From Siphonodentalium dalli (taxonomy: Eukaryota; Mollusca; Scaphopoda; Gadilida; Siphonodentaliidae), in assembly GCA_032622095.1 (NCBI GenBank), contig CP136064.1:174354310-174418309 (forward strand): a DNA stretch of 64,000 bases. The letters run 5' to 3'. Shown piece by piece: positions 14,894 through 63,552 of this stretch. The notes below the pieces were generated by a model. That model made no database searches. It was not told the DNA's origin and worked only from the letters and a program-made list of their open reading frames with translations. The position numbers and the translations under genes are program-made. Each line of letters starts with the position of its first letter. Positions within the stretch are counted from its first letter, which is position 1.

Positions 14894-15029
14894 TTATTAA
14901 TTGGTTGTTTCTATATTGGCCGAGTTATGAGGCCGAGGTCTGTCGTATTGGCTGAGGCTGCAGGCCGAAGGCTAATACGGCAGACCGAGGCCTCATAACT
15001 CGGTCAATGTGGAAACAACCAATTAATAA
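14894..15029. repeat. Long GGCCGAG foldback
   Basis: Two 56-base arms (14894-14949 and 14974-15029) are near-perfect reverse complements, starting TTATTAATTGG and ending CCAATTAATAA, with a 24-base centre. The arms are rich in GGCCGAG, and the transcript would form a very stable hairpin. It may be an independent MITE or the outer end of the transposon candidate whose left inverted repeat is at 15478. Confidence 0.8.
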
Positions 15030-18011: not shown

Positions 18012-18048
18012 AAATCGATTGAGTGGAAATTTCATCCAAACTGCGTCA

Positions 18049-19350
18049 ATGGATGCCAGAATGTTTTCAAGAGGGAGGAAACTCGTTAAAATGGCACTGT
18101 CTTCTTCGAATGTGATAACAACACCTCCACCGGAAGTAGTGATAGCAAAACCTTCTGCTGATGTGATAACAACACCTCCACTGGAAGGATTGATACCCAC
18201 ACCCCCAGTGGAAGTAGTGATAACACTTCCACCGGAAGTAGTGATAACACCTCCACCGGAAGTAGTGATAACAACACATCCACCGGAAGTAGTGATAACA
18301 ACACCTCCACCGGAGGTAGTGATAACAACACCTCCAGCGGATGTAGTGACAACAACATCCCCAGTTGAAGGATTCATAACAACACCAGCACCGGAAGTAG
18401 TGATAACAGAACATTCAACAGAAGGAATGGTTATAACACGTCACACAGCAGTAGTGGTAACAACACCTCCTACAGAGGTAAAACACTTTGGTAATCAATT
18501 TGGTGACGAATTCACAACGAGCGATGACAGGATGGATCACATACTGCAAAATCCGTCAGCAATGTCCATTTACCGAATCCAAAATGGGAATATTGAACAA
18601 TATGGTGCCCTTCCGCAATTTGAACATTTTTGCGAATTTGGAAGTGGTCTGCATACATGTAATAACTTTTGTGTGACTGAATTGACACGTGGTGACAGCA
18701 CTAAATTTTTGCAACAGACTGAAGACGAATATCTGGACGACTCTCGGAACTCACAGGATTCGCAGGACGATACGGATATGAACGATTACCCAGACGATTC
18801 GGACATGGACCCAGACTGGGAACCAGAACCCACACCGAAACGTTATGTTTTCGAAGTAGATATGAACGATACCAATGACACTCCGCCAAATACATCTATC
18901 GAAGAAACTGTGTCGAACATTGCACATGAACATATTCAGACAAATGCTGCTGTGCCAAACACCAAACAACGAAAGCGTCCTGCGCCTGAGAAGTGGGAAC
19001 GCGCCGTTAATAAAACAAAGCGAATGCGTGGTGAACAGTACATGTCCGTCAATAAGACAGTTGGTCAGAAGCAGTGTTATAACAAACAAAAAGGTGCACG
19101 TAAAATTAAGGATGCTAAATGTGTCAACTTATGTAAAAATAGGCGCAGTTGTCATGAGTTGACCACGGAAGATCGCTCGTCGATATTCAATCAATTCTGG
19201 ACAAACATGACGTGGATGGAGAAAAAAACGTACATTGTCAACCTTGTTACAAAATTACCTAGTAAACATTCTGAAGGCAATAGAAAGTTTTCCTATGTCT
19301 ATCACCTTAAAACCAAAGACAAAATATATACAGTATGCAAAAAAAATTAA
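18049..19350 (+). CDS. Transposase-family N-terminal protein with Pro/Val repeat, truncated
   Basis: From the first in-frame ATG the product is 433 residues. The order is a short leader, a low-complexity block of a nine-residue repeat (VVITTPPPE-like, about residues 20-145), and a Thr/Ser linker. An acidic stretch follows (DDSRNSQDSQDDTDMNDYPD), then a basic RKRPAPEKWERAVNKTKRMR segment with KCVNLCKNRRSCHEL and RSSIFNQFWTN, ending YHLKTKDKIYTVCKKN. The part from the basic segment onward follows the pattern 'RKR..PEKW..N..K..R..GE.Y...C...C......R..IF..FW' and 'VCKKFFL.TL'. That pattern occurs in many invertebrate transposase-like proteins upstream of the catalytic domain. The stop falls where 'FFL.TL' is expected, so the catalytic half is missing. 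It lies inside the inverted-repeat element and is probably a remnant or regulator. Confidence 0.55.
   Translation: MDARMFSRGRKLVKMALSSSNVITTPPPEVVIAKPSADVITTPPLEGLIPTPPVEVVITLPPEVVITPPPEVVITTHPPEVVITTPPPEVVITTPPADVVTTTSPVEGFITTPAPEVVITEHSTEGMVITRHTAVVVTTPPTEVKHFGNQFGDEFTTSDDRMDHILQNPSAMSIYRIQNGNIEQYGALPQFEHFCEFGSGLHTCNNFCVTELTRGDSTKFLQQTEDEYLDDSRNSQDSQDDTDMNDYPDDSDMDPDWEPEPTPKRYVFEVDMNDTNDTPPNTSIEETVSNIAHEHIQTNAAVPNTKQRKRPAPEKWERAVNKTKRMRGEQYMSVNKTVGQKQCYNKQKGARKIKDAKCVNLCKNRRSCHELTTEDRSSIFNQFWTNMTWMEKKTYIVNLVTKLPSKHSEGNRKFSYVYHLKTKDKIYTVCKKN
18110..18480. repeat. 27-bp coding minisatellite
   Basis: About a dozen copies of a 27-bp unit (consensus GTAGTGATAACAACACCTCC plus ACCGGAA) make the Pro/Val/Thr block of the overlapping gene. 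Because the unit length is a multiple of three and free of stops, the antisense strand is open as well in three frames. This explains the antisense ORFs at 17802-18414. Confidence 0.85.
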
Positions 19351-19469: not shown

Positions 19470-19735
19470 TTATACTCAAAAACGACTGTGTGCAAATTGT
19501 CCACACAACTGTGTGAAGGTTGAAAATGAACAAAAGTGTGTGCCAACTTGTGTGTAAAAATACACAGTGTGATTATACACAAACTTGTGATATAATAGCA
19601 CACACTTGTTGTAAATATTATACAACACGTTGGTGTATATAACCACACAATGTGTATATTGTACACACAATTGTTTTCACGATCAACCTTCACACAGTTA
19701 TGTGCACAATTTGCACACATTCGTATTTTGAGTGT
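19470..19735. repeat. GTGTG-rich palindromic element
   Basis: The left side (ATACTCAAAA, then 'ctgtgtgcaaattgtcc', then 'ctgtgtgaaggttga') is inverted at the right ('tcaaccttcacacag', then 'cacaatttgcacaca', ATTTTGAGTGTAT). The middle is a series of TGTG/CACA repeats that also pair. The antisense Cys-rich open frame (19442-19720) is a by-product of TGT/TGC codons. Confidence 0.75.
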
Positions 19736-20172
19736 ATTGTTCTATATATAATGATCCACAATGCTGACCATGAACACATTATGCATGATAAATAAAGTTG
19801 GATTTCACTCGTTAGTCCAATATCACCATTATAAGACATAACCCGTATAATTGAAGAGATGTATACTCACACTCACAACCTGATTAATTTATAATCATGT
19901 CACAATCATGTGTGCGGATGGGTTCGACGTCATGTCACGAGTGGCCACGGGTGGATTCGAACGAGAGGTCGGGGGCCTCGAGTTATCACCCTTTCGCGCT
20001 CGCAGCATTGTAATTACGACGTCCTATCCCTATGTGGCATTCTGTGTTTATAATACACCCACTCGTAAATCTTCAGAACATAAACGTGTGTCTTATTGCT
20101 ATCTATTTCCAAATTACTGCACACGTCAACGGTTAAATGCATTATGGAACATGTTCCATAACATTTAAAGGT
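19736..20172. other. Unassigned sequence
   Basis: No gene is seen. A tRNA B-box-like word lies on the minus strand near 19953-19963, without a matching A box. Confidence 0.35.
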
Positions 20173-25194: not shown

Positions 25195-27250
25195 ATAATC
25201 ATTTTTGTGACAAAATCACGCATAATTATAGATATCTTGAATATATTAAACTTTCCTGAATGAACAGAGGCTGCAGAAGTGCCGTGTTATCGAAACATGA
25301 ACTCTAGACCACAATTAACTCGGTATTAGCGAGTTAACGCGTAAATATCAACATGTTACCACTGAAAATCAAGCCACGTGGACGCAATTTCTTTGTTTTT
25401 CGTGGCGTATAAAATATGAAACGCATTCTGAACACAAACACTGACTATAAAGTGTACCCGTGTTATTCTTTTGTAAAATAGCTGAGAAAGTATCCCGATA
25501 GGGGTTGATATAATTGGGAGCTGTGACCTCGTAATCAACACGGGTGTGTGTTACGGTTCTATTTCAAACCGATCATGGCTGTGACGGTTCTGTCCATGAG
25601 ATTTATTCGAACGATTTCTGCACTTGGGTCCGAAAATCGTCTTGTGTATCTGACATTTTAAACCAGATAATGACTGTAGCTTATGTAATTTGCATAATAA
25701 AACAGGTATAAATTATTAAGAAATAACACAATAAATACCTAATACGGGAGATTAAGTGACATTAATAGGCAGAAATAAAATATTGAAAGTCCCGATGAGT
25801 ATAGTATCATAATCATGCCCGCCTATATAAATGACCAATGGTAATATAAATCTACTCTCAGGAGAATATGATATGTTATATTCATTTACTTAATTTGGGC
25901 ATTATTGAAAGATCCACGTGTGACAATATTTCAATGCCAGCGCCATCATATTTCCTCCTCTGAAGTCCGCCTGAGGGACATTTACACATGTTTGTCGCCC
26001 AGACATGAATATAACTTATGAAATCACGTTCAACTGAATCATTGATAGGTTATGACGTGATTGGGGTGGTGGGGGGACTTGGGGAGGGGGTGCTTAATTG
26101 GTGTCTATCCCCAACTTTGGTCAAAACGTTCAACAGTTACAAATTTCTTATCTTACAATAGATTGGTTTGAAATTTAACACCAACAATATGTTGAAAATG
26201 TTCTCTTAATTTGATTTGACAACAATTTAATAGTGGGGATTTTGTCGTTTTTAGACTAACATTTGCATACTTTCCTACACTTTAAACATGTAATCAACCA
26301 TATTTGACATATACAAATGGACACCTCTTCTTTAGAGTTGATCCAAAACTCATGATGGGTGGACATGAAGTAGGGAGCAGGTGTGATCTAGTTTTCTATA
26401 TCACATTTACCCCCCCCCCCCCCCCAAATTGGCAAGAAACTGGTTTACTGGACAAATAATCTAATTCCATTTAATTAGTATGCTTTGTATTAAATAATGT
26501 ATGCTCTTTTGCAAAATAAATCATCTCTCTCTCTCCATCTGTTGGGAACATTTCCAATCTTGTGGGGATGGGAGCGCCAGGTTGGAAACTTCCAACACTT
26601 GTGAATCTTGAAGCCAGTCTAGATGTTTTTTGCAATTTTCAGGTTCAGATATCCACATTTTCTCACTGGGCCCATATATCCTGAGTTTCTCCCCCGGTTT
26701 GCATGGTGGCCAATCAAAGGCTACTGATCAATTCACTTCAGAATGGTATACAATCTAGAGCTATAATGTGTCATGCAGTTGGGGAAAACCAAAGCCCAGG
26801 CCTTGTGCATGAGTTTGGTCTGTTTCAAGGGGATGGTGCCGTTGGAAATTCCAAGGTGGACGCCCCAACATTGGATACCCTCCAGCCCACGTCCCTGCTC
26901 ACTTGAGACGTTAATAGCGAGGAATAATAATGTGCCTTATAATAGCCAGGTTCAGACACCCATAACACTAATGTTTAATGATTCATTTGTATGAATGTTT
27001 AGCTAATAATTCAAACAATCTGTTACTGCATGTTGAAATTAATAGCTGAGCATTCATACAAATGAATCAATAGGATTCAAGTCGCTGCTCTTTATAGCAC
27101 ATTTAGTCACCAAAGAATTAACATCCATATAATAATATTTGTAACTGCATGATTCTTTTCTCTTTTTTATATGTTACTGCTTGTTGAACTTAATAGCTAA
27201 GAATTCCTACAAATTAATCAATAGGATTCAAGTCAATTCTCATTACAGCG
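25195..27250. other. Interior of the 4.1-kb element, no gene seen
   Basis: AT-rich with a run of about 15 C at 26410. Overlapping short frames at 26703-26994 have no motif. Two near-identical 'agctaagaattc...aaattaatcaataggattcaagtc'-type passages lie at about 27040-27090 and 27185-27240. Confidence 0.35.
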
Positions 27251-31583: not shown

Positions 31584-33110
31584 TAGTGGAGCAGATTAAG
31601 TCAAATTTTCAAGGCAATTGTTCAAATTGTGACTAAAGCATGAAACTTTGCACACATGTATATATTCACATACTTATTTATATTAGATATGGAGCCACGC
31701 TGAAATTTCACTTTAACCCATCTTTTAAGGGATTTTCTTTATTTAAAGTGCGTTTCGTGATTATATAATTTATTAAATGTCGCAATTAAAGGTACTCAAC
31801 CCGTAAAGAGGGTCCCCATCTCAACAGATTCCAACAACAACAATCCGATCAGAGGGTCCTATATTACTATTTCTTTGGCTTTGGGGGTAAAAAATATTTG
31901 ATTCGAGTCGAGGAACCCATCAAACAAAGCTCAGAGTTATTAGATATTGATTTTTGAAAATTCTTATGTTCTCGAGATGAGTACTGATAACTGCCGTCAA
32001 TTTGGTAACCTGCTCGAGATTTTACGCCAAAATTCTATTCAAACAGACAAGGATGGATAACTCTATAATCAAGTGGGTAATAATAACGAATTTTTGATTG
32101 TCTTCTGGGCCAGAAAGAATTCCCGATAATGAAAAATAATAGATTTCTAAAATCGATATCTAACAAATCTGAGCTTTGATGGGTGACTTCCTCGACTCGA
32201 ATCAAATATTTTTGACCCCCGAAGCCATTGAAATAGTAATTGAGAGGAGTTTTATCGGGTTGAGTACCTTTAATCTTACCATGAAATATGCGATTTAAAA
32301 TTAGGCATATACAGAAAGTATGACTCTGACAGATATAATGCCACTTTTTTCGGGTAAAATTGGAACTCCCCGTCCAAGATGGCCATCAAAATGGCAGCTG
32401 AAAGAGGAAATTTGACATTTTTTCACTAATATATTCGTCTGAATGGAACTGGTTCGGAAATGTGACTTTATTTGGTATTGTGTGTATTAAGTTATCATTG
32501 GAGCAATGAAATATGCCATTCATGTGATCCCAGTCCCTTCCGATCCCCCAATAATTCGATAATACATATCACCGTTAGGATTCTAGTAATATTTTAACAA
32601 GAAATTGACAGAACTGTGCGAACCAAGCGAGGCATACAATTACTTTTGAATATTTGAACTCAATGGAACAAAAATTGTCATTTGTCTGAAAATGGCTGCC
32701 AAAATGGCAGCCAAAACCTGGAAAATGGTAAATATTGCCCCATCATGCCATGTAATCCCCTACACGTTGTGATTGGCGAATACAATTGGCTATGCTGTCT
32801 TATGTTAACATTTCTGATGCACATTGGTTAAGTGTTACTAATGTAACCACTGACATTACGAGAATTATTGGATTTTTTATCACAAGTTTGACATCAATAT
32901 CGGCAAAAAAATACTTTTCTGGTTTGGACATTTCTTCAAGTAAATGGAACTATCTTTGGTATAAAATATGTTTATTGTTTTTGATATGTCTTAATAAATG
33001 CGTTACACTAATGTTTTTTTATACAAAATTACTCAAGTTAGCTTCCAAAATGGCAACCACATTTGATAAAAAAAAAAAGTATCCAGAGCAGTATTTTCTG
33101 TTCCAAAGAG
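31584..33110. repeat. Dispersed repeat, copy A (inverted partner at 41.3-42.4 kb)
   Basis: Shared passages include 'atggagccacgctgaaatttcactttaaccc', 'gcgtttcgtgattatataattt', the 'ggaactccccgtcc' block with AAAATGGCAGC words, and 'aatggaactatctttggt'. All read in reverse complement in copy B. A TTAA MITE interrupts copy A at 31790. A 118-codon open frame at 32786-33142 lies in this repeat and has no counterpart frame in copy B, so I do not call it a gene. Confidence 0.75.
31790..32269. mobile_element. TTAA MITE 'GGTACTCAACCCG' family, complete copy (480 bp)
   Basis: Ends are AGGTACTCAACCCG and CGGGTTGAGTACCT, flanked by TTAA (31786-31789 and 32270-32273). Inner inverted blocks ('aaatatttgattcgagtcga' at about 31890, inverted at about 32190) lengthen the terminal repeats to well over 100 bp. 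Copy B of the host repeat has a single TTAA at the equivalent place (42194-42197), which is the unoccupied site. Confidence 0.85.
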
Positions 33111-34599: not shown

Positions 34600-35114
34600 G
34601 ACAAAAGTAACCCTACGTATCAACTTTCGTGGAAATCCCATCAAAATTCGGGATTTGACCTTGAATTGACCCGATTTCAAGGTCAATGTCACGTCGCACG
34701 GGCAAATTAATAGGCCTATGCCACTTCCCGGCCGAAAATACCCCCACATACCAAGTTTCATCGAAATCCCGTGATATTCGGGCGTTTTACCTTGAATTGA
34801 CCAGATTTCAAGGTCAAGGTCACGTCGCACGGGCAAATTAATAGGTTTATGCCACTCCCCGGCCAAAGGTACCCCCACATACCAAGTTTCATTGAAATCC
34901 CGTGATATTCGGGCGTTTGACCTTGAAATGATCCGATTTCAAGGTCAAGGTCACGTCGCACGGGCAAATTAATAGGCCCATGTCACTCCCCGGCCGAAAA
35001 TACCCCCACATACAAAGTTTCATCGAAATCGGCTCGGCCGTTTTCGAGTCCATCGATTACAGACACACACACAGACACACACACACATACAGATCTTCCA
35101 AAATATATAATAGA
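34600..35114 (-). repeat. Tandem-core repeat, about 129-bp unit, 3 copies, with microsatellite end
   Basis: Cores carry 'ccaagtttcatcgaaatccc', GTGATATTCGGGCGTTT and 'tcaaggtcacgtcgcacggg'. The element closes with 'gagtccatcgattacagaca', a CACA tract and CTTCCAAAATATATAATAGA, immediately before the CTAG that starts the next unit. Read on the minus strand it therefore starts with TC like its neighbours. Confidence 0.75.
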
Positions 35115-35802
35115 CTAGCCGATGAGCCCGACGTTGTCCGGGCTATTCAAAAACCAAATTTCAAGTCGATAGCTCTACCCAGCCCGACGTTGTCCGGGCT
35201 ATTCAAAAACCAAATTTCAAGTCGATAGCTCTACCCGTTTCCGAGATCTGGTCTGCGCATGCGCGAAGCTTGCGTCGCACGGGCTCGGCGACCCGATAAA
35301 ATTCGTATCTGGGGCAAGATACATTCACATACCAAATTTCAAGTCGATAGCTCCACCCGTTTCCGAGATCTGGTCTGCGCATGCGCGAAGCTGGCGTCAC
35401 ACGGGCTCGGCGACCCGATAAATTTCGTATCCGGTGCAAGATACATTCACATAGCAAATTGCAAGTCGATAGCTCCACCCGTTTCCGAGATCTCGTCTGC
35501 GCATGCGCGAAGCTGGCGTCGCACGGGCTCGGCGACCCGATAAAATGCGTATCCGGGGCAAGATACATTCACATAGCAAATTTCAAGTCGATAGCTCCAC
35601 CCGTTTCCGAGATCTCGTCTGCGCATGCGCGAAGCGGGCGCCGCACGGGCTCGCCAATACGACAACGTCCACCGCCTGGTCAAACTACACACACGTACCA
35701 AGTTTCGTCCCGATCGGTCGAGAATCGTAGATTTGTATCAATGATAAACAAACATACATACAGACAGACAGACAAACAGAGGTCTTCAAAATATGTATGA
35801 GA
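35115..35802 (-). mobile_element. Helitron-like unit a (688 bp, 4 cores)
   Basis: On the minus strand it begins TCTCATACATATTTTGAAGA and a CTGTTTGTCTG microsatellite. It continues through four cores of about 121-126 bp and ends with a hairpin (AGCCCG...CGGGCT), a 6-base spacer and CTAG. TC...hairpin-CTRR is the canonical Helitron pattern. The cores contain CTGCGCATGCGCGAAGCTGG and 'gtcgcacgggctcggcgacc'. There are no rolling-circle replicase genes, so it is non-autonomous. Its layout (tandem cores next to a microsatellite) matches the bivalve pearl family. Confidence 0.75.
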
Positions 35803-36878
35803 CTAGCAGGTTAGCCCGCCACTGGCGTGCTTGGTCAGAAACATGACAATGTTTTATGTTTTGTTTGTGTTTTTCAATATTTTACCCGATTTGACCTTGA
35901 ATTGATCATTTTCAAGGTCAAGATCATGTCGGGGTCACAATATATCATTTGTGGGTACCCGTTTGAAGGTTAAGACTGACCCGATGAAAAATTCCCCCGT
36001 TCCTAGGAACGACAGACATAAGAATGTTTCACACAATGCGACGTCGACGATCCCCGTGTGTTTTTACACTTATATACGAAGTTTGAGCTCACCTAGGGCG
36101 GAAAAACTTACCCGATCCGCGTTCTTAGGAACACAACACGCTCCGCGTTATACGAAGTTTGAGCTCACCTAGGGCGGAAAAACTTACCAGACCCAGAAGA
36201 GGTATGGTTTTTTTTAACCTGCCCGTGGCCATTGAGCAGCCCCTGACAGAGGTTGTCCACCCTTACGTCCCCGCAAAGTTAATCCCGTCGTTAACCCCAT
36301 CCTCGCAAAGAGCGGACAGTCAATTAATCCCGTCGCGAACGCCATCACCAACGCGCCGTAATTTTGTTTGGTATCATGTGTTGCGTTCTAAAAATAGGAA
36401 AGCACTTGTTTGCGTAAATACGAAATTGTGAGTGTTGGTTTGTAACCGGGATTTCTGAGAAGCATTATGCCTATAACTACCCCCCTAAGCCCTGACCTAA
36501 GTGTTATACATACTATAACAATGATGTTGTAAGAGTACTATGGCATCCAATAAATCTCCCCGCATAGGAAACCACTCAATGTTACCGTATATCTCTCTGC
36601 AGATGCTAATAACGTTGAATGGTAAAGAGACGCTCTTTATAGCGATGCGTCAAAAACAAACGCTCATTAAATACTCACTTGATTAACCCACGCCGTGCCT
36701 TTGCGGTGATTTGGGAGTAGATAAAGGGTGCTCAGAGCTTCTCCAAAACGCGACAACTACGGTGTTCGTGTGTTTTTACCCTTAGATGGGAAGTTTGAAC
36801 TCAATCGAGCCAGCCGTTTTCGATTCTATAAAGTACATATATATATATATACGGAAGTCTCAAAATATATAGTATAGA
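35803..36878 (-). repeat. Different Helitron-like unit between a and b
   Basis: Begins CTAGCAGGTTAGCCCGCCAC with its own hairpin (CGCCACTGGCG) and ends 'ggaagtctcaaaatatatag' at the junction with unit b. It includes a duplicated 'tacgaagtttgagctcacct' plus AGGGCGGAAAAACTTAC segment (near 36075 and 36153). From about 36610 there is a dispersed block ('tttatagcgatgcgtca' to TATATATA) that recurs at 40612-40917. Confidence 0.6.
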
Positions 36879-37505
36879 CTATCCGATGAGCCCGACGTTG
36901 TCCGGGCTATTCAAAAACCAAATTTCAAGTCGATAGCTCTACCCGTTTCCGAGATCTGGTCTGCGCATGCGCGAAGCTGGCGTCGCACGGGCTCGGCGAT
37001 CCGATAAAATTCGTATCCGGGGCAAGATACATTCACATACCAAATTTCAAGTCGATAGCTGCACCCATTTCCGAGATCTGGTCTGCGCATGCGCGAAGCT
37101 GGCGTCGCACGGGCTCGGCGACCCGATAAAATTCGTATCCGGGGCAAGAAACATTCACATAGCAAATTTCAAGTCGATAGCTCCACCCGTTTCCGAGATC
37201 TCGTCTGCGCATGCGCTGCACGGGCGTCGCACGGGCTCGCCAATACGACAACGACGACGACCGCCTGGTCAAACTACACACACGTACCAAGTTTCGAGTC
37301 GATAGCTCCACCCGTTTCCGAGATCTCGTCTGCGCATGCGCTGCACGGGCATCGCACGGGCTCGCCAATACGACAACGACGACCGCCTGGTCAAACTACA
37401 CACACGTACCAAGTTTTGTCCCGATCGGTCGAGAATCGTAGATTTGTATAAATGACAGACAGACAAACAGACAAACAGACAGAGGTCTTCAAAATATATA
37501 TGAGA
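36879..37505 (-). mobile_element. Helitron-like unit b (627 bp, 4 cores)
   Basis: Same minus-strand structure as unit a. The end is CTAT instead of CTAG, the only unit with a changed terminus. The last two cores carry CTGCACGGGCGTCGC in place of GCGAAGCTGG, followed by ACGACAACGACGACCGCCTG. Confidence 0.75.
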
Positions 37506-38187
37506 CTAGCCGATGAGCCCGACGTTGTCCGGGCTATTCAAAAACCAAATTTCAAGTCGATAGCTCTACCCAGCCCGACGTTGTCCGGGCTATTCAAGAA
37601 AACCAAATTTCAAGTCGATAGCTCCACCCGTTTCCGAGATCTCGTCTGCGTATACGCGAAACTGGCGTCGCACGGGCTCGGCGACCCGATAAAATTCGTA
37701 TCCGGGGCAAGATACATTCACATACCAAATTTCAAGTCGATAGCTCCACCCGTTTCCGAGATCTCGTCTGCGCATGCGCGAAGTGGGCGCCGCATGGGCT
37801 CGGCGACCTGATAAAATTCGTATCCGGGGCAAGATACATTCACACACCAAATTTCAAGTCGATAGCTCCACCCGTTTCCGAGATCTCGTCTGCGCATGCG
37901 CGAAGTTGGCGTCGCATGGGCTCGGCGACCCGATACAATTCGTATCCGGGGCAAGATACATTCACATAGCAAATTTCAAGCCGATAGCTCCACCCGTTTC
38001 CGAGATCTCGTCTGCGCATGCGCTGCACGGGCGTCGCATGGGCTCGCCAATACGACAACGACCACCGCCTGGTCAAACTACACACACGTACCAAGTTTCG
38101 TTCCGATCGGTCGAGAATCGTAGATTTGTATTAATGACAAACAAACATACAAACATACATACAGAGGTCATCAAAATATATATTAGA
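37506..38187 (-). mobile_element. Helitron-like unit c (682 bp, 4 cores)
   Basis: Ends with intact CTAG. The terminal segment with the hairpin (AGCCCGACGTTGTCCGGGCT on the plus strand) is duplicated within the unit (near 37515 and 37572), so one core is replaced by a second terminal fragment. Confidence 0.75.
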
Positions 38188-38573
38188 CTAGCTGATGAGC
38201 CCGACGTTGTCCGTGCTATTCAAAAACCAAATTTCAAGGCTCTACCCGTTTCCTAGATCTGGTCTGCGCATGCGCGAAGCTGGCGTCGCACGGACTCGGC
38301 GACCCGATAAAATTCGTATCCGGGGCAAGATACATTCACATACCAAATTTCAAGTCGATAGCTCCACCCGTTTCCGAGATCTCGTCTGCGCATGCGCGAA
38401 GCGGGCGCCGCACGGGCTCGCCAATACGACAACGTCCACCGCCTGGTCAAACTACACACACGTACCAAGTTTGGTCCCGATCGGTCGAGAATCGTAGATT
38501 TGTATAAATGACAAACATACAGACAAACATACAGACAAACATACAGACAGAGGTCTTCAAAATATGTATGAGA
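38188..38573 (-). mobile_element. Helitron-like unit d (386 bp, 2 cores)
   Basis: The shortest unit: one complete and one terminal-type core between hairpin and microsatellite. The hairpin has one changed base (GTCCGTGCT). Confidence 0.75.
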
Positions 38574-39307
38574 CTAGCCGATGAGCCCGACGTTGTCCGG
38601 GCTATTCAAAAACCAAATTTCAAGTCGATAGCTCTACCCGTTTCCGAGATCTGGTCTGCGCATGCGCGAAGCTGGCGTCGCACGGGCTCGGCGACCCGAT
38701 AAAATTCGTATCCGGGGCAAGATACATTCACGTACCAAATTTCAAGTCGATAGCTCCACCCGTTTCCGAGATCTGGTCTGCGCATTCGCGAAGCTGGCGT
38801 CGCACGGGCTCGGCGACCCGATAAAATTCGTATCCGGGGCAAGATACATTCACATACCAAATTTCAAGCCGATAGCTCTACCCGTTTCCGAGATCTCGTC
38901 TGCGCATGCGCGAAGCTGGCGTCGCACGGGCTCGGCGACCCGATAAAATTCGTATTCGGGGCAAGATACATTCACATACCAAATTTCAAGTCGATAGCTC
39001 CACCGTTTCCGATATCTCGTCTACGCATGCGCGAAACTGGCGTCGCACGGGCTCGGCGACCCGATAAAATTCGTATTCGGGGCAAGATACATTCACATAC
39101 CAAATTTCAAGTCGATAGCTCCACCCGTTTCCGAGATCTCGTCTGCGCATGCGCTGCACGGCGTCGCCAATACGACAACGACCACCGCCTGGTCAAACTA
39201 CACACACGTACCAAGTTTCGTCCCGATCGGTCGAGAATCGTAGGTTTGTATTAATGACAGACAGACAGACAAACAGACAGACAGAGGTCATCAAAATATG
39301 TATGAGA
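38574..39307 (-). mobile_element. Helitron-like unit e (734 bp, 5 cores)
   Basis: The longest unit, with five cores in a row and small deletions in the fourth and fifth. The structure is otherwise as in unit a. Confidence 0.75.
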
Positions 39308-39813
39308 CTAGCCGATGAGCCCGACGTTGTCCGGGCTATTCAAAAACCAAATTTCAAGTCGATAGCTCCACCCGTTTCCGAGATCTGGTCTGCGCATGCG
39401 CGAAGCTGGCGTCGCACGGGCTCGCCGACCCGATAAAATTCGTATCCGGGGCAAGATACATTCACACAGCAAATTTCAAGTCGATAGATCCACCCGTTTC
39501 CGAGATCTCGTCTGCGCATGCGCGAAGCGGGCGCCGCACGGGCTCTGCGACCCGATAAAATTCGCATCCGGGGCAAGATACATTCACGTAGCAAATTTCA
39601 AGTCGATAGCTCCACCCGTTTCCGAGATCTCGTCTGCGCATGCGCGAAGCGGGCGCCGCATGGGCTCGCCAGTACGACAACGGCGACCGCCTGGTCAAAC
39701 TACACACACGTACCAAGTTTCGTCCCGATCGGTCGAGAATCGTAGATTTGTATTAATGACAGACAAACATACATACAGACAGACAAACAGAGGTCTTCAA
39801 AATATATATGAGA
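39308..39813 (-). mobile_element. Helitron-like unit f (506 bp, 3 cores)
   Basis: Three cores; intact CTAG at the low-coordinate end and TCTCATA at the high end. It is followed at 39814 by CTAGCAGGTTAGCCCGCCAC, the same heterologous unit start as at 35803. Confidence 0.75.
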
Positions 39814-41340: not shown

Positions 41341-42388
41341 TTCAGAGTTCTGCTCATTTGAAAATATCAATTTTTCTACCAAATTTTGTGGACATTTTGA
41401 AAGCCAGCTTGAGTATATTTTTCTAAAAAAACACTTCAGATTACGCATTTAAGACGGATCAAAACAATAAACACAAAAGATAGTTCCATTTTACTTGACA
41501 AAATGGTGCAAACCTGAAAAGTTTTTGTTTTCCCGATTTCGAGAGAAAATTCCAATAATTTTGGTAATGCAACAGTAATACTTATCCAAGATGCATCATA
41601 AATGTTAGTATTCAATGTATATATGACAGAACAGCCAATTTTATTCATCATCCACAATTTCAACTTTCAAGCGATTGCGTGGCACGGCGGGACAATATTT
41701 ACCATTTTCCATATTTTAGCCGTCATTTGACAGTCATTGTCAGCCAAAGTGGCAATTTTGGTTCCATTGAGTTGAAATTTTCATAGTAATGGTAAGCCTC
41801 ACTTATTTTGCACAGTTCTGCTCATTTCTTGTTGAAATATGACTAGAATCCCTATGGTGATTTTTGGTGAAATTTCATACCGCGTTCTGTTAAATCAAAT
41901 TATTGAGGGATCGGAAGGGGCTGGGATCCCACGAATGTCATATTTCATTGCTCCAGTGACCAGTTAACATGAACAATACAAAATAAAGTCACATTTCCGA
42001 ACCAGTTCAATTCAGAAGAAACTGGTCTGGAAGATATCAGTGAAAAAACGTCAAATGTTCCACTTACGGCTGCCATTTTGACAGTCATCTTGAACGGGGA
42101 GTTCCAATTTCGCCCTAAAAATGTGACATTAGATCGTGCTCAGTCATTCTTGTTGTATATGCCTAATTTCAAAGCGCAGATTCCATGGTAAGATTAATTG
42201 TGACATTTATTAAATTATATAATCACGAAACGCTCTTTAAATTTGGAAAACCCCTTAAAAGAGGGGTTAAAGTGAAATTTCAGCGTGGCTCCATATTTAA
42301 TATCAATTGGTATGTGAACATGTATAAATGTGCAAAATTCATGCTTTAGTCACGAAGTGAACAATTCTTTTACTAATCTACTCCACTA
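41340..42388. repeat. Dispersed repeat, copy B (inverted relative to 31.6-33.1 kb)
   Basis: Reverse complement of copy A over about 1 kb, moderately diverged. It lacks the 480-bp MITE and shows a single TTAA at 42194-42197. Homology runs from about 41340 to the 'ctactccact' near 42388. Confidence 0.75.
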
Positions 42389-42537: not shown

Positions 42538-43603
42538 GGCACAAAAATGGGCGGAACCCACAGATGCACTCAGACTGCCCAACATATTAAATTCATGCCT
42601 TTTCTAGTCCCACAACATGATGTACCCCGAACAAGCTCAAAGCAAAATTATCCAAACATTACAAAACAATGTTAATGAGTACTACAAAACAAATATAACA
42701 ACAGGCCTTATGCAATTCCACGATATGGACATTAATGAACAAAGCAAGTAGACAGTGCAGTATTAACAAGAACTTGGAAAAATAACCACCAACAACCAAA
42801 ATTTTATAATGCCAGCACAAAGCAACTTTAACATAGCCCATATAAACGTGAACAGCATTAGGGCCGCGTAAACAAGAACTATAATAGAATTCGTAGAAGA
42901 AAACAAAATAAACATACTCACAGTAAACGAAACAGAATTAGGCAACGACATTAAATTTTCATTTATATCCTCCGCTGGGGGGGGGGGGGGTCGCCATACT
43001 AGTTAGACACCACATAAAATACACCATAAGATTATCAACACCTCCAAACTTAAAGACGAAATCATAGCAATAGAAACGACTATCAGCAATAGAAAAACAG
43101 CTTTAATTTTCCTATACATTCCACCGGGCAAAACTACTCCCCAACTTTCAACTTTCAAATACTTTACAGATAAATTTTAAAACTGCATCTTTCTAGGAGA
43201 CCTTAATGCAAAACATATAGTATGCAATTGCAGCAAAACTAATCCCTATATACGGGGACACACTATTCGACATAAGACCAAGAACTAATACCACTCAATA
43301 ACAAAGGCATCGCAACCCACCACAACATAAACCCAAATCATGGAAAATGTTAGACTACCCCCTGTAGCCACGCAATCAATTGCAAAAACAATACATACAT
43401 GCACGATATGATTCGATATTGGGAGTGCCCACTATCCAGTCGAACTCTACATAACAAACGCAAAACCACAACACAACAAACATATCCTCAAAAGAAACCT
43501 TAGGAATGCAGATTGCATGTGACAAGTTTAGGGAACACATAAACTTAAACATTGGCAATACAGAAATGAACACCCCGAATGACATCGAAATGGCAGCCAA
43601 ATC
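42538..43603 (+). pseudogene. LINE ORF2 apurinic endonuclease region, decayed
   Basis: The first part (42538-42750) may be the end of ORF1 (MAQKWAEPTDALRLPN...). From about 42815 the frame reads NIAHINVNSIR, then NILTVNETELG and, after a G-run frameshift, VAILVRHHIKYTI, LKDEIIAIET and FLGDLNAKHIVWNC. These are the conserved asparagine, glutamate and 'GDxNAxHxxW' motifs of the AP-like endonuclease of Jockey/CR1-type LINEs, which nicks the target DNA. One in-frame stop and several frameshifts break it. It ends with IEMAAKS exactly where the foldback element begins, so the foldback interrupts it. Confidence 0.8.
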
Positions 43604-44789
43604 ACGAACATGACAATTGGAACTTATTCCCTATTCCTTATTTTCAAAAATGTCGCTTTCGACCGATTTGACGGCCGGCCCCAAATACCACCTATTAACA
43701 CCCCGACCCCCCACCCATCACCCCCGGTGGGTGCCACCCCGAGGGTGTGAAAATGGGGTATGGACCATTTTTGAGAACGGTAAGGATTTCGACCGATTTG
43801 ACGGCATGGGCGGCCCGCCCCAAATACCACCTAGAAACACCCCGACCCCCACCCATCACCCCGGGGGGGGGGGGGGGGGGTGCCACCCCGAGGGTGTGAA
43901 AATTGGATATGGACCATTTTTTAGAACGGTAAGGATTTCGACCGATTTGACGGCATGGGTGGGTGGCCCGCCCCCAAATACCACCTAGAAACACCCGACC
44001 CCCCACCCATCACTCCCGGGGGTGCCACCAGAGGCGGTGAACATGGGGTATGGACCATTTTCGAGAACGGTAAGGATTTCGACCGATTTGATGGCATGGG
44101 TGGGTGGCCCGCCCCAAATACCACCTAGAAACACCCCGACCCCCACCCATCACCCCTGGGGGTGATACCCATAGGGGGTGAAATGGGGTATGGACCATTT
44201 TCGAGAACGGTAAGGATTTCGACCGATTTGACGGCATGGGTGGGTGGCCCGCCCCAAATACGACCTAGAAAGACCCCGACCCCCCACCCATCACCCCTGG
44301 GGGGTGCCATCCATAGGGGGTGAAATGGGGTATGGACCATTTTCGAGAATGATAAGGATTTCGACCGATTTGACGGCATGCGTGGGTGGCCCACCCCAAA
44401 TACCACCTAGAAACATCCCGATCCCACACCCATCACCCCCGGGCGGTGCCACATCGAGGGGGTGAAAATGGGGTATGGACCATTTTCGAGAACGGTAAGG
44501 ATTTCGACCGATTTGATGGCATGGGTGGGTGGCCCGCCCCAAATACCACCTAGAAACAACGATCCCCACCCATCACCCCCGGGGGGTGCCACCCCGAGGG
44601 GGTGAAAATGGGGTATGGACCATTTTCGAGAACGGTAAGGATTTCGACCCATTTGACGGCATGGGTGGGTGGCCCGCCCCAAATACCACATAGAAACACT
44701 CCGACCCCCCCCCCCGTTTAATTAGTCTGAAAAAACTGTCAGATCACATGATAATCCACTTCATGACAAAGTAGTTGCAAGTTTTTCTT

Positions 44790-45158
44790 GAATTGCTAAA
44801 TGTCATATATAGCACACTCGTATGGACGATGGCCGGTCTATGTCCTATTATGCTTTGCCAGACTCCGTATATGACTGAATTCTTTCTGATACACGCCACA
44901 CTTATATGGACAATCGCCGGTGTTCGTCCTCTCATGCTTTGCCAGACTCCATACATAACTGAATTCCTTCTGATACACGTCACTCTTGTATGGACGATCG
45001 CCGGTGTTCGTCATCTTATGCATTGCCAAACTCCATATATAACTGAATTCCTTCTCATACACGTCACTCTCGTATGGTCGATCGTCGGTGTTCGTCCTCT
45101 TATGCATTGCCAAACTCCATATATGACTGAATTCCTTATACACGTCACACTCGATGTG
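44790..45158 (-). pseudogene. Decayed C2H2 zinc-finger repeats
   Basis: On the minus strand four 28-residue repeats (84 bp each) read like KEFSYIWSLAMHK followed by RTNTGDRPYKSDVYQ. This is the classical 'C..C.K.F....L..H.R.HTG.RPY.C' finger and linker. The second cysteine is tyrosine in every repeat, the second histidine is asparagine in every repeat, and the first cysteine survives only in the outer repeats (ECDVY, KCGVY). The first histidine is kept. Such fingers cannot bind zinc normally. Because the changes are shared, the loss preceded or accompanied amplification. The fragment sits in the loop of the foldback element, with stops at its 3' side, so it is a captured gene piece rather than a working gene. 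Confidence 0.75.
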
Positions 45159-45191
45159 TTGGGGGTCAGGGTGTTTCTAGGTGGTATTTGG

Positions 45192-46181
45192 GGCGGACTG
45201 GCCGATCGGGAGACCGGGAAATTTCCCGATGGGCCGGAGGCCGGAAAAATTCTGATTCCACGTGATTTTCTATTAAGCGAGAATCCGAGGGTTTTACGGT
45301 TGGTGGGGGGGGGGGGGGTATATGTGGTTGGGCCGCCCAACCACAACTTGGGCCGCAAATGAAACCGACGTGGGCCGCCACATGTGTTGTTTAACCAGCC
45401 GTGTATCCAATAAGATGGTACTCTTCTCACATAAATTCATGAGGGCAGAGGCGGACTGCATGGCCGATCGGGAGACCGGGAAAATTCTGGACGTGGGCCG
45501 CCACATGTGTTGTTTAACCAGCCGAATTGGCTAATCGTAATTTTGATATTAAATGAACTTGTCGGCATCATATAACACCACGTAAAGACCCCATTAATCT
45601 CGAGATTTTAACGGTAACTCCCAGCTGTAAATCCCAAAAAAAATTCTTACGCACCCCTCCCCCAATTGAAATTTACAAGATAATAGGAACGCTTCAGCTG
45701 ATGCCAGTCTAGTTTATCGGATTCGAGATTTTCTTGTATAGTTTTCAAAATGTTCTCACCCCGGGCCGAACAACCATGAACAGCCCGGTGTGTCCTGGTC
45801 TCTTGTCCGTAGCCGTGTGCATTTGTCTGGAGTTAGACCGCTAGATGTTAGATTTTATGCAATTTTTCAGGTAAAAATATCTGAATGGTCTCATACCGGG
45901 AATATATAGAACCATGGTTTATGAATATATAGGATATTAGACCGGAGGTGCAAATGGAATTATGCAAAAACATGTATTTGGTCTGCATCTGATTCAAGGG
46001 GGGGGGGGGGCAAATGGAATTATGCAAAAATATGTATTTGGTCTGATTCTGATTCAAGGGGGGGGGGGGGGGTGCAGTTGGAATTTTCCAAGGTGAACTG
46101 TGGACGCCCCCCCCCCCCCAAACAGATGGGCCGGTATTATATTAATTTCCCGGGCCGGTTTCTTGGCCCAGTCCGCCTCTG
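45192..46181. mobile_element. Insertion in the right foldback arm, hAT-like ends
   Basis: At 45192 a foldback unit ('tttctaggtggtatttgggg') switches into CGGACTGGCCGATCGGGAGA, and at 46181 CCGCCTCTG gives way to the next unit (CACCCACCC). CAGAGGCGGACTG occurs at 45446-45458 and inverted at 46169-46181, as at ends of hAT-like elements. The interior repeats 'gtgggccgccacatgtgttg' twice (about 45370 and 45491) and a dimer of about 66 bp ('ggaattatgcaaaaa...ggtctg...gattcaagggg', 45955-46070). Confidence 0.55.
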
Positions 46182-46849
46182 CACCCACCCATGCCATCAA
46201 ATCGGTCGAAATCCTTACCGTTCTCGATAATGGTCCATACCCCATTTTCACCCCCTCGGGGGTGATGGGTCGGGTGTTTCTAGGTGGTATTTGGGGCGGG
46301 CCACCCACCCATGCCGTCAAATCGGTCGAAATCCTTTCCGTTCTCGAAAATGGTCCATACCCCATTTTCACCCCCTCGGGGTGGCACCCCCCGGGGGTGA
46401 TGGGTGGGGGTTGGGGTGTTTCTAGGTGGTATTTGGGGCAGGCCACCCACCCATGCCGTCAAATTTGTCAAAATCCTTACCGTTCTCGAAAATGGTCCAT
46501 ACCCCATTTTCACCCCCTTGGGGTGGCACCCCCCGGGGGTGATGTGTGGGGGGTCGGGGTGTTTCTAGGTGGTATTTGGGGTGGGCCACCCACCCATGCC
46601 ATCAAATCGGTCGAAATCCTTACCATTCTCGAATATGGTCCATACCCCATTTTCACCCCCTCGGGTGGCACCCCCCGGGGGTGATTGGTGGGGGGGGGGG
46701 GTCGGGGTGTTTCTAGGCGGTGTTTGGGGCGGGCCACCCACCCATGACGTCAAATCGGTCGAAAGCGACATTTTGGAAAATAAGGAATAAGGAATATGGA
46801 ATAAGTTCCAATTGTCATGTTCGTATAGAGTTTTGATTTGACGAACTAG

Positions 46850-47045
46850 TTTCATTGCTTTTCTTTGTATTTCTCTAACACAATGCTTTGATATTTTTGA
46901 TGTGGGCTCCCTGCAGAGTAACAGTATTCGAATTTAGAAGCTTCTGGTGTGGTGAATGAGAAACCTGCAGTAATAAGCCGTAGTTTTTTGTAATAATTTG
47001 AAGGATTAGTTGTTTTAACGGAATTCTGAGGTGGTGCATTCATGT
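46850..47045 (-). pseudogene. LINE reverse-transcriptase C-terminal fragment
   Basis: The minus strand reads NYYKKLRLITAGFSFTTPEA, then HQKYQSIVLEKYKEKQ. This resembles the Jockey-type 'xKLRLITGxxxxTPxxAxxxxxxxxPxxxRxxxLxxKY' segment after the reverse-transcriptase domain. It abuts the right end of the foldback element. The LINE part on the left side of the foldback is on the opposite strand and from a different region of the protein, so this is not simply the other half of one insertion. Confidence 0.55.
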
Positions 47046-47394
47046 AACCAATATATTTTAGATTATAATTTATATTTATGGCTAATAATATGATCTTGAG
47101 GGCGTTACCATTTCTGATTATGGTTATTATGGGGGCGTCTTCTCTGTGTCCGTCTTAGTGTGGGGCAGACTTCGTATGGGGCCGGCTTTGCGTGGGGCCG
47201 ACTAATTCTCCTGCATTCCTTCTAAAAAGGACGTGTGCTATTTGATCGGTGGCCCGGGGGCGCTGATGACTGTCCCTGGGCTGGTAGATACACTGGTCGT
47301 TGCGTTGTATAAGCCGTCGAATAATTATCTCTCTCAAAACTACTAACAATTTTAACTGGCTATACAAATTTGCTATGGAGGACCAAAATGGTCA
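47046..47394. other. Unassigned GC-richer patch
   Basis: Contains a tandem 'gtggggc(a/c)gact' series near 47158-47205 and an antisense open frame (47155-47367) without a recognisable domain. Confidence 0.3.
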
Positions 47395-47720
47395 TAATTC
47401 TAACTTACTATTTTAACTCTACCATAATATTTTAATTCTAATATTTTAATTCTAACTTAATATTTTAAAATTTAATTCTAATATTGTAATGCTAACTTGA
47501 TATTTTAACTCTAACTTAATATTTTAACTGTAACTTAACATTTCAATTTCAACTCAATATTTTAATTCTTATATTTCAATTTTAATTAAACATTTTAACT
47601 CTGACTTAATATTTAAATTCGAACCTATTGCAACTCCAACTTAATATTTTTATTTCAATATTTTAATTGTAACTTCAAAGTAAAAAGCTAAATACAAATC
47701 TACTACTAAAAGTTATAATG
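47395..47720. repeat. AT-rich minisatellite
   Basis: About fifteen irregular copies of a 20-bp unit close to TAACTTAATATTTTAATTCT. Confidence 0.8.
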
Positions 47721-48200
47721 TTGGAGTTAAAATGTTAGAATTAACAAGACAGTCAATGACTGGGGTCGCTGACCAGTCTGCAAAGACTGATAAGACTGGG
47801 ACTCTGGAGACCACAACAGTCAGAACTTTTCATAATCACTTTAAAAGAAGTAGATCTAAACAGGATATGTGGCTAGAGAGGCTTCATGTACGTAGATCGG
47901 TAATTATCCACCTTGAAATTACCAACTGTACACTACTGATCACCCCCTCCTCCAGCTCAACAAGTCCCCTCCCAACCGGGCTCCAGACTCCCAAGTCTTA
48001 GGTTGGAATTTCACAACCGACATCTCAAACTTTCTCAATTGTTGGGAATTTCCAATCTCACAAGTGCCTTTTTATAAAACCATTTAGACATGTCTGAAGC
48101 CCAATTATCCATGGACCCAAAACACAATACATGTATGTCAGATTAATCAGTCAGGTAGTTCCAAGGTAGATGTTTAAATGAATTTGGTGTTTCAATGATT
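47721..48200. other. No recognisable gene
   Basis: An open frame at 47732-48001 has no motif. The 'ttggaatttcacaac' and 'gttgggaatttccaatctcac' words resemble 26545-26610, so this is likely a dispersed repeat. Confidence 0.3.
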
Positions 48201-48229
48201 TTATTAGACACAAAAGTGTTAAGTCCCCA

Positions 48230-49552
48230 TAATCCCGTCATTTCTTAACAGGTTGACCTCATGTTAACAAATCTGAATCTCAGTCACTAAAGGATCCTCC
48301 ATACTATATGTAAGCTGAATAGTCCAACCTCTCTTGAGAAGACATTTTAAGAATTACTATAGAGATATACAGTTATGTACCCTGGTCCCACCATATTTAA
48401 CCTGTGACCCCATCTGAATAAATTTGAATCCCAGACACCAAAGAACCCTTCATACTAAATATCAGTAAAATAGACCTGATGGTCCTTGTGAAGGAAGCAT
48501 ATTAAAAGGGAAACTGTCCTTACCCCATTAAAAAAAATCTGAATTGCAGTCAAACAAGAACTAAATAAGCCAACTAGTTCTTGGCTCTTGCAAACATATT
48601 TTAAGAATTACTATGTGGTGAAATAGTTATGTCTCTGGGTCTGCCCTTATTCGACTTTTAGATCCCATTTTCACAAATTTCATACCAAATATAAGCAAAA
48701 TAGGCCATTTGATTCTTGCATAGAAGACATATCATGAATTACTATGGAGAGAAAGAGTAATGTAGCTGGCCTTGCACCTACTTGACCTGGTGACGCTGAT
48801 TAAACAAATCAGAATCACAATCACCAAAAGAGCCTCAATATTAAATATGAGCTAAATAGAGCTGGTGGTTCTTTCAAAGAACACTTTTCAAGTTTGCCAA
48901 ATATGTTCTAGTGAAGTGGTGGATGTGGAAGTGTTAAATGTCCCGTTGAAAGATGTGAACAATACATATGATAGATTGTTGTTGTAATTGGGAATTAATG
49001 ACCTCTAGCAGATCTCCAGGGAATGTTTATAAAAATGTCGGATTTCATTTGACATGTGTAGGCATAGTCCGCATACAGTTAGAGCCAAAGTAAATGCTTC
49101 TTATTAATGATTATCTGTCAAGAATTTGAGTAAATATTATTTTTGGAACCAGGGTGGCAGAAGCAGTGAAGTTGAGTAAAGGGCCAGGGGGTACAATATA
49201 TATATATATATATATATATATCCCAGTCACCCAAGGTTCCTTCATACCAAATATGAACCCATTTGGCCTGATGGTATTTGAGAAGATGTTTAAAAGAATT
49301 ACTATGGAGGGAAAGAGTTATGGCCCTGGCTTCGCAACTATTTGACCCAGTGACCTCATTTGAACAAATCTGAATGTGAGTCACCTAGGGAACGTCCACA
49401 CCAAATATGAACCCATTCGGTCTTATGGTTCCAGAGGAGAAGAAGTTTAAAGAATTGTTGACGGACGGATGGATGGACAGACGTGTGGACGGACGACGGA
49501 CGAGGAGTGATGACTATAGCTCCACCAGAGACTTCGTCTCAGGCGAGCTAAA
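48230..49552 (+). repeat. Hairpin-terminated tandem-core repeat (about 190-bp cores)
   Basis: Six or so diverged cores carry 'aacaaatctgaat', 'caccaaatatga', 'agaattactatggaggga' and 'ttatggccctggcttcgcaa'. The 3' end is 'gttgacggacggatggatgg', 'gacggacgacggacgaggag' and a hairpin (TAGCTCCACC...GGCGAGCTA). This ending is the commonest mollusc tandem-core repeat signature. A TA tract interrupts it at 49196-49221. Confidence 0.75.
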
Positions 49553-60744: not shown

Positions 60745-63552
60745 TCAAAATAGCTTGAGAGCAGATGATGTGTTGTCATCACCACAACCTCCAAAGCTGA
60801 AGGAAAACCCTCCAGATGTATCGGATGTCTTATCTTGATTGCTGTTGTCTCCACCACCTCCAAACAGAGACATCAATGTCGAGTTTTCATCTGATTTGTC
60901 TTGTCCACCAAAGCTGAAACTGAAATCTCCAGATTCTGAAAAAGGGAGAAATGAAAAAAAACAACATTAAACATAAAATAATGTTTTTTTGGATGGAGGT
61001 GGGGGAGGTGCCAGGTCTTGGCTATACTAATAATCAGAATTAATGTTTAGTAAATCTATAAATTATTAATATTGACGCTCAGTTCAGAGAGTGGTCAATA
61101 CCAAATATTGGAATTGCTGGAAATTGTTTTTTTGTTGTAAATTTGTAAGATTCGTTACTCTGAGAAATCATTGGATAAAACCCATTGTATCCTTTCCCTC
61201 ATCTTGACCTATCACTATTCTTTTTTTTTTATTCATTTGCTTACATTGCTTGATCTTCGGATGTCTTAACACTTTCATGAGGGAGCCTCGCATATATCAG
61301 ATAATTCACCGGCTTACAAGGTCAAGGTAAATATTGTTAGCCAATGCATTGCCTTATATATGTGAGGCATCCTATGGGCGACTATAAGAGAATGCATTGG
61401 CACAGGCATTTTGCAAAAATTCAAATGAAAAATGTCCCACTAGATTATCGCATTATATAAGAAAATATTGATTCATTGAACCGTTTCCAGACTTCGACTC
61501 ATATCTATTATTTTATACCCCGGAAACTATAAAAAACATGTTTAGGAAGAGATAGACCAATGGACGAAACCTGTATTTAGTCGGTATCCTTCAAACAAAC
61601 AAGGGCCGCAACTCTGATAAAAATGAATGGACGAAACCCGTAGTATGTGGATATCATTTCCCCAAGCTGTGCTATCACAATACAAAAATACAACACCCCA
61701 GATTTCTATTTAATAACCCTCCTATAGTCATGCCCAAACCATTGCCATTCATTGGAAAGCTCTCTGTTTTAGTCGGAAATATGGCTTGTTGCCATTCATC
61801 AGAAAGCTCTCAGTAAGAGCTTTCCGATGAATGGCAACAAGCCATATTTCCAACTAAATCATGAAAAATTACCCATAATTCTGCTGTGGTTAAGGAGTAA
61901 ATTATTTAGGGCATTACTGTACTAATGAATGTACGTACTTACGGAAAGCCAGACAGAGCCCTCAAATATTATACTGCGAACCACATTCGGGGGTCAGAGG
62001 CATAATAAGAGAAAAGTAATAACTATTGACATGAAATACATACTTTTTCTAGTACTGGAGTGTTTTTAGAGAAATATTCTATACCTGGACTGGATGGAGA
62101 AGCAAATATTGATTTTGTTGAGTTTTCATTCCCTGCATCTCCTCCAAGGAAGTTGAACATGTTGGATGATCCATATGAGTCTGATGGTGTCGGGTCCTGA
62201 ATGAGAACAGAAATGTAGCTATTATGTATAAATTTTAGACATTATTATAGTATTCAACAAGTGTAGGCCAGTCGGTTTCAATCTTAGTTAAACTTTCAAA
62301 CAATTACATTCTTTCAATTTTCTTGTTTGAATATAATATATCTCATTGATATAATGTGCACATTACATTCCTTCAATTTTCTTGTTTGAATATAATATAT
62401 TTGATATAATAGGCACCAGATTTTACCACCATAAAACACATGACCCTCAGCTATCATAATTCTATGGCGTAATAGAAGGCATATTTAATCATTAACTGTG
62501 TGTAAACATAATATTATTACCTGCCGAAAGAAGCTGGATATGAATGGACTATCATTTGTATCACTGTCCTGAAAGTAAATTTAAGCAACATAAATATCTA
62601 ATTAGAATTACTACCATATTAAAATTATAGAAGAATGTATTTCTCAGTTATAATCTCATGCAATTTTTTTTTATTTTAATCTGTTTATAGATATGAAAGT
62701 TTAATATCATCTGGAAATGAAGTAGACAGACAAAAGATGGATGAACTATTTGCAAAATATGTCTTGTTCAAACAGATATATAGAAAGCAGACAAGGTTGT
62801 TTCTGTTAGGGATGTGACCTGAAAAATTAAGTTGACCAATATGCTGTAAAAAGAGTTAATCTATATAAACAGTTAAATTAAAAAAATATCCACATTCAAT
62901 TTATTTTTAGTTAGACTGTTAAACTTGGACTACAAGAGACGGAAAAGATAGAAAAGCTGTAAAAACCAGCCTTAAACATTCTTCACTACATTATTTTGTT
63001 TTACTATTCTCTGTCCTTTCTTTATTTGTCAGCAGTCAGAGGAAAATTACTCTAGTTTTTTAATTCAGAGAGCGCCGAGCCGAGATAGGTGACAAAATAT
63101 AACTTTTCACAATGTTTCATAGGGCACCCTACCTAAAACATAACATAGTTTCAGAGGTTAACAGGCATTAGCCAACTGGTTAACAGGGCATAAAAATCGG
63201 AAAGATTGTAAACATATTTGCAAATTGTGGAACGAATGTAGACACTTAATAAGATTCAACTTCGTTTTCCTGCTTTCGTTCTGATTTGGTGACTTCATGG
63301 TAAAGAATGTAACGAGGCGCATCAAAAATGCATGGCGATTCAGACAAAGAGTCATGTGTCAACTCTGTACAAACATAATATATCTGCCAAATACTTCCAA
63401 GTTATATACTTTTGGAAATGGTAGTGTATTCCCTATATAAAGTTGTTCCCACTCCCCCCAATTTCACAAATAACCACAAAGATGCGTCCATGCAGTTTGT
63501 GTCCACCAAATAAATTTTACCTTGTCATATAGTGTAGAATCGTACGGGGACA
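60745..63552 (-). CDS. 3' end of an unrecognised host gene, four exons
   Basis: Minus-strand exons are 63521-63552, 62521-62568, 62085-62196 and 60745-60935 (stop at 60745-60747). Each is bounded by AG and GT, and the phases fit throughout (2+30, 48, 112 and 191 nt). The first acceptor has a weak pyrimidine tract, so that exon is least sure. The joined product runs from SPYDSTLYDKDSDTNDSPFI through FNFLGGDAGNENST to ESGDFSFSFGGQDKSDENST, LMSLFGGGGDNSN, GGFSFSFGGCGDD and a final SSALKLF. It is acidic and Ser/Gly/Asn/Phe-rich, with two FSFSFGG repeats and no globular domain, so it is probably a disordered tail. I cannot name the protein. FG-type repeats recall nucleoporins but are too few to conclude. 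The remaining exons lie beyond the window. Intron 3 holds a MITE hairpin. Confidence 0.6.
61768..61921. repeat. Hairpin MITE in an intron
   Basis: Arms 61768-61810 and 61816-61858 pair over 43 bases with two mismatches around the loop CAGTA. The sequence continues into GAAAAATTACCCATAATTCT and GCTGTGGTTAAG, the same block as in the 7.7-kb hairpin element. A partial third arm lies just upstream (61741-61767). Confidence 0.8.
62303..62415. repeat. Short tandem duplication in an intron
   Basis: 'cttcaattttcttgtttgaa' followed by 'tataatatat' occurs twice, about 60 bp apart, inside the intron between the 112-nt and 48-nt exons. Confidence 0.6.

Follow-up and report, generated by a model that had tools for sequence, protein, structure and literature searches.

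A worn foldback-like element with tandem-array arms and a decayed C2H2 zinc-finger loop in Siphonodentalium dalli

The window analysed is a stretch of 64,000 nucleotides from contig CP136064.1 of Siphonodentalium dalli. At 43604–46824, two arrays of tandem repeats face each other across a loop, and each is closed on the outside by a unique end zone (Table 1). Long inverted arms of tandem repeats behind a unique end are a feature of the foldback class. The coordinates and anatomy given for this element by an initial annotation of the window were correct. That annotation described a foldback form with shared inverted ends, the outermost 20 bases being perfectly inverted. We confirmed the opposed arrays, and the ends turned out to be longer: positions 43604–43630 and 46798–46824 are perfect inverted copies (27/27). 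Aligned further inward, the end zones matched in 88.3% of 77 columns, with small indels; past them, the arrays begin at the same point of the unit on both sides.

As a random control, 3,000 pairs of 100-base stretches with starts outside 43000–47500 were compared. None contained an exact inverted match of at least 20 bases (maximum 19). The length of 27 bases is not unique in the window, since four other exact inverted pairs of 28–33 bases connect distant places (a TA run was excluded). These four pairs are dispersed repeats. What sets the 27-base pair apart is its position at the outer edge of both arrays.

Table 1. Features of the element and its left flank (window positions)
Feature	Position	Strand	Description
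Left flank	42827–43275	+	Decayed non-LTR retrotransposon endonuclease segment (Pfam, stitched translation)
Left outer end	43604–43657	+	Unique inverted end zone, first 27 bases perfect; inverted match to 46764–46824
Left arm	43658–44716	+	7 full units (130–149 bases), followed inward by a partial unit of 74 bases (unit splitting/alignment, TRF)
Loop	44716–45152	-	Decayed C2H2 zinc-finger fragment, 437 bases; 84-base tandem units at 44813–45153
Inner remnant of the right arm's partial unit	45153–45198	-	blastn of the unit
Foreign insertion in the right arm	~45199–46181	.	983 bases; right end is CAGAGGCGGACTG at 46181
Right arm	46182–46763	-	4 full units (120–148 bases) and the outer part of a partial unit (unit splitting/alignment)
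Right outer end	46764–46824	-	Inverted counterpart of the left end, exceeding it by 7 bases

The arm unit measures about 141 bases, and the left and right arrays run in opposite orientation around the loop. The initial count of "about 8 and 5" units agrees with our splitting, which gave seven full units and one partial unit on the left, and four full units and one partial unit on the right. A blastn search placed a 44-base piece of the unit at 45153–45196, in right-arm orientation and adjoining the loop. This inner remnant, whose edge at 45198 scored best among those tried and is uncertain by a few bases, together with the outer half of the broken unit covers unit positions 1–75 with no internal gap. 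On their inner sides, both arrays break off partway through a unit and at almost the same point, with 74 bases of it on the left and, once the insertion is removed, positions 1–75 on the right.

Identities were computed between full units, with gaps excluded. The means were 91.2% within the left arm (21 pairs), 91.8% within the right arm (6 pairs), and 91.9% between the arms (28 pairs), the last corresponding to a difference of about 8%. The within-minus-between value was –0.6 points; of 330 labellings, 93% gave a value at least as high, and 7.3% gave one as low or lower. The units thus show no grouping by arm. Mirror pairs, whether numbered from the outer or the inner end, were 89.8–93.2% alike against the between-arm mean of 91.9%, and were not consistently closer than other pairs. 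The longest exact tract spanned 72 bases between the arms and 91 bases within the left arm. These relations fit exchange within and between the arms, or descent from one pool. They argue against a recent simple inverted duplication, as well as against a false inverted copy made by the assembly. A single arm unit folded no better than its shuffles (z = 0.55), and we therefore do not propose a special hairpin inside it.

About 983 bases of foreign sequence interrupt the right arm; the initial annotation had missed this insertion, which makes the arms look about 1.47 kb apart. The outer end of this insertion is intact, and its inner edge lacks the first bases of the motif. A second exact copy of the 13-mer CAGAGGCGGACTG lies at 45446 in the opposite orientation, and the segment 45446–46181 inside the insertion is bounded by the two inverted copies. 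The ends of hAT elements start with CAG; by the end motif only, we take the insertion to be hAT-like. No site duplication of 5–10 bases abutted the left edges tried (about 45186–45202 and 45440–45450), and with only one end intact, the case for a simple hAT insertion is unproven.

The size of the loop, with the right-arm insertion discounted, is in line with the earlier estimate of about 450 bp. Its minus strand carries four 84-base repeats, the first of them short by one codon, and then the beginning of a fifth. The 101-aa minus-strand open reading frame (ORF) matched ZNF568 in a phmmer search of the PDB, with E = 5.7e-32 summed over the repeats and 1.1e-10 for the best single stretch. In Pfam, it matched zf-H2C2_2 with E = 2.1e-8 and 34.5 bits, under the curated cut-off of 40, followed by zf-C2H2 (E = 0.086) and a weak EF-hand match below the cut-off (E = 0.0034). 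The PDB and Pfam searches support the C2H2 fragment that had been proposed for the loop, though the fragment is decayed. In the translation, the second zinc cysteine is changed to tyrosine in all five copies, which were located by a pattern requiring this tyrosine; the full loop translation contains no further copy without it. The first cysteine is kept in three of the five, and the second histidine is changed to asparagine in three of four copies and to a stop in the fourth. By its sequence, the zinc-finger fragment is clear but dead. The four repeats have 21 variable columns: 11 at codon position 1, 4 at position 2 and 6 at position 3. Although the numbers are small, this distribution has no third-position excess, and the loop repeats thus do not show a coding pattern of change. 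Together with the cysteine loss common to all copies, this suggests that the unit was probably multiplied after the fragment had died; conversion among the copies would look alike.

The window contains 30 ORFs of at least 100 aa, and 14 of these were scanned against Pfam, including all seven inside the element. None of the seven matched a transposase, in agreement with the initial description of a loop without one; a heavily broken transposase could escape such a scan. The zinc finger was the sole meaningful Pfam match inside the element, and another ORF gave a chance-level match (E = 0.06). No second copy of the element was found within the 64-kb window. Exact patterns of the end and the arm unit were absent from viral contigs and prokaryote genomes, collections that are unlikely to hold animal repeats, and this result is therefore uninformative on copy number. 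Rfam yielded no match at gathering scores, and ARAGORN (bacterial code) no tRNA. Six element strings of 19–20 bases had no match in the full text of the literature. Among the literature matches listed, as judged by titles and abstract openings, none was a foldback element with a zinc-finger loop.

The endonuclease segment in the left flank was recognized from a translation stitched across frameshifts, which matched Exo_endo_phos_2 (E = 9.2e-7) and Exo_endo_phos (E = 4e-6) in Pfam; two unstitched, single-frame pieces gave no Pfam match. By reading, the retrotransposon runs on to about 43600 and is interrupted there by the element. Its resumption on the right was not found in a Pfam scan of 10 of the 16 plus-strand stop-to-stop ORFs of at least 35 aa starting at 46825–49500, a scan that is weak for decayed pieces. 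It returned no reverse transcriptase and two chance-level matches (E = 0.15 and 0.1). This counts against a clean insertion, which would predict resumption.

A target-site duplication (TSD) was sought between 40-base flanks, and no match was obtained under any of seven length and mismatch settings. Random flank pairs gave at least one match with a frequency of 9–69% across the settings; one short flank match would therefore have carried little weight. For symmetric end placements, the repeated words were only palindromic and 2–6 bases long (CATG, CAATTG and shorter), because inverted ends generate such words by themselves. The scan of all placements returned four 6-base matches, three of which (TCGAAA, CAAATC and TTGGAA) need asymmetric ends, deep in the right end zone. 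We found no duplication of the 7 bases seen in Galileo and the P superfamily (8 in a few copies), the 8–10 bases of Mutator foldbacks such as Tm1 and Tetris, or the 7–10 bases of foldbacks generally. The missing TSD and the retrotransposon that was not found to resume speak against simple transposition. A chimeric or rearranged element would explain both.

Foldback-form elements are a polyphyletic structural class. The present element is foldback-like in form and is assigned to no named family; the TSD, one usual feature, was looked for and not found between the 40-base flanks. Among the published anatomies compared, each taken from excerpts of its source, the nearest is that of Galileo copy 112 from Drosophila willistoni. 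The excerpt describes this P-superfamily copy, the longest in that species, as arms only with no transposase segment. Its tandem repeats of about 140 bases occur in unequal number, 2 to 9 per region; its arms carry fragments of two other transposons, and identical TSDs flank it (PMC4168063). The S. dalli element likewise has two long inverted arms, no transposase segment, direct repeats of about 140 bases in unequal number, and sequence of another transposable element in an arm. Galileo copy 112 differs in its identical TSDs, its arms of more than 4 kb and its membership in a family with transposase-coding copies, and the part of the description compared mentions no zinc-finger loop (PMC4168063).

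The remaining comparisons draw on similar excerpts. Tetris of Drosophila virilis has a unique outer domain and tandem arm units of about 220 bases, which also form longer satellite-like arrays (PMC4079207). It resembles our element in the external unique domain followed by tandem arm units and in having no protein-coding capacity. Its middle varies, and in the one S. dalli copy the middle is the C2H2 fragment. Tetris differs in its 8–10-base TSDs, its inner TIR domain and its several known copies. According to the Tetris authors, separate TE lineages may come to a foldback structure independently of one another (PMC4079207), and form therefore does not give the superfamily. Tm1, a Mutator/Foldback element of root-knot nematodes, has composite inverted repeats with internal repeats; one copy contains a gene, one a nested 936-base element, and one, the Cg-1 copy of M. 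javanica, is without TSDs (PMC3169594). Its internal motif is about 14 bases long, however, 45 of its 53 complete copies have TSDs of 8–10 bases, and transposase-encoding members are known (PMC3169594). Oyster Helentron and HINE elements with central satellite-like repeats are also mobile elements bearing short tandem arrays, but they hold one array between two modules, in HINEs with subterminal inverted repeats, whereas two inverted arrays are found here (PMC7492417, PMC11136912).

With these results in hand, we consider it fairly probable that the locus is a worn, non-autonomous foldback-type transposable element, rearranged or chimeric, and close in form to Galileo copy 112, Tetris and Tm1. 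This explanation is favored because the 27-base perfect inverted ends abut both arrays at the same unit phase, because the inner ends of both arrays fall within a unit at almost the same point, and because the units of both arms come from one pool. It is also favored because Galileo copy 112, with identical TSDs, has the same anatomy in the description compared (PMC4168063). The missing TSD is compatible with it, since rearranged Galileo and Tm1 copies can lack TSDs, according to the parts of the sources compared (PMC3573991, PMC3169594); in D. mojavensis, the 7-base sequences on the two sides of 12 chimeric Galileo copies, whose TIRs are divergent, do not match (PMC3573991). Against it stand the single visible copy, the absence of a TSD and of a transposase, and the left retrotransposon, which was not found to resume on the right.

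Such an element would have short ends of unique sequence, arms formed by inverted tandem arrays, and between them a loop with a captured, dead C2H2 fragment. In single strands, the arms would pair into a hairpin, and the arrays could grow, shrink and exchange sequence within and between the arms. Transposition would require a transposase made elsewhere that recognizes the ends. Another element later inserted into the right arm of the present copy. The site duplication may have been lost or never present, the simplest cause being a rearranged or chimeric copy.

The absence of a site duplication and of a second copy in the window, in a neighborhood rich in arrays, would also suit a locus that was never mobile. 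Here, a satellite-like array around a zinc-finger pseudogene would have been duplicated in inverted orientation through template switch or break repair, and the "ends" would be co-duplicated flank. We regard this as unlikely. A single event copies a continuous stretch, yet the arms lack a mirror order of units, although later exchange could erase it; moreover, the inverted match ends in unique DNA just outside both arrays, like a defined end. The unequal unit numbers (7 vs. 4 full units) and the left and right flanks, which look unrelated by reading, would be accounted for if one array-bearing element (end zone plus array) had inserted twice, tail to tail on either side of the zinc-finger fragment. 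Since this requires insertions about 440 bases apart, in opposite orientation and with inward ends at nearly the same phase, it is more improbable still.

The initial annotation had named a misassembled inverted duplication as an outcome that would overturn it. The window has 13 G or C runs of at least nine bases; seven lie within 43604–46824, four of these seven in the insertion, and such runs are hard to read. Nevertheless, the end zones are only 88.3% identical and contain indels, between-arm units are about 92% identical with a longest exact inverted tract of 72 bases, unit numbers are unequal, and the foreign insertion is present in one arm only. Given the differences of about 8% between the arms and the lack of clustering by arm, a fresh assembly artefact is very unlikely. 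There is also a weak possibility that the 27-base end is coding sequence of the flanking retrotransposons and not a fixed transposon end. The minus strand of the right flank, as we take it, resembles the C-terminal part of a reverse transcriptase that runs into the element end, and the left-flank endonuclease presumably also runs into the 27-base end. Pfam matches for the right flank did not rise above chance level, and the same bases cannot naturally belong to both reverse transcriptase and endonuclease regions.

As for the foldback-type element that we favor, a single decayed element of this form is of a known kind, with an unusual loop. It is conceivable, though on balance doubtful, that it represents a foldback family not yet described, in which the loop took up a host C2H2 fragment, and that the 84-base unit of the dead piece was then multiplied, producing a minisatellite inside a transposon with satellite-like arms. 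Should further copies with these ends be present elsewhere in the genome, they would add a foldback family with satellite-like arms, and mobile sequence could be followed along two paths towards satellite-like DNA, one through the arm units and one through a captured coding repeat. For a single decayed copy, the value lies mainly in annotation.

The surrounding window showed several other repeats. A 142-base repeat at 46984–47125, 160 bases to the right of the element, has an inverted counterpart at 6111–6241 (75% identical). About 460 bases to the left of the bordering retrotransposon fragment, 41371–42366 forms an inverted dispersed repeat with 31616–33074, in pieces that are 73–87% identical. 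Tandem units of about 277 and 395 bases lie within a 3.26-kb direct duplication (2652–5909 and 9731–12992, 96.8% identity). At 34602–39670 there are arrays with unit lengths of 131 and 122 bases, and pairs of 56–58-base units (AGCCCGACGTTGTCCGGGCT...) were found at 35125–35236 and 37516–37629. Palindromic blast matches marked five short self-complementary, MITE-like stretches (7680–7905, 14894–15029, 19471–19736, 26976–27072 and 61765–61861). The 453-aa ORF at 17989–19350 contains a 27-base minisatellite encoding proline/valine/threonine-rich repeats and had no Pfam match up to E = 1. Among homopolymer runs of at least nine bases, the interval 43604–46824 holds none of the window's 14 A or T runs, compared with 7 of its 13 G or C runs.
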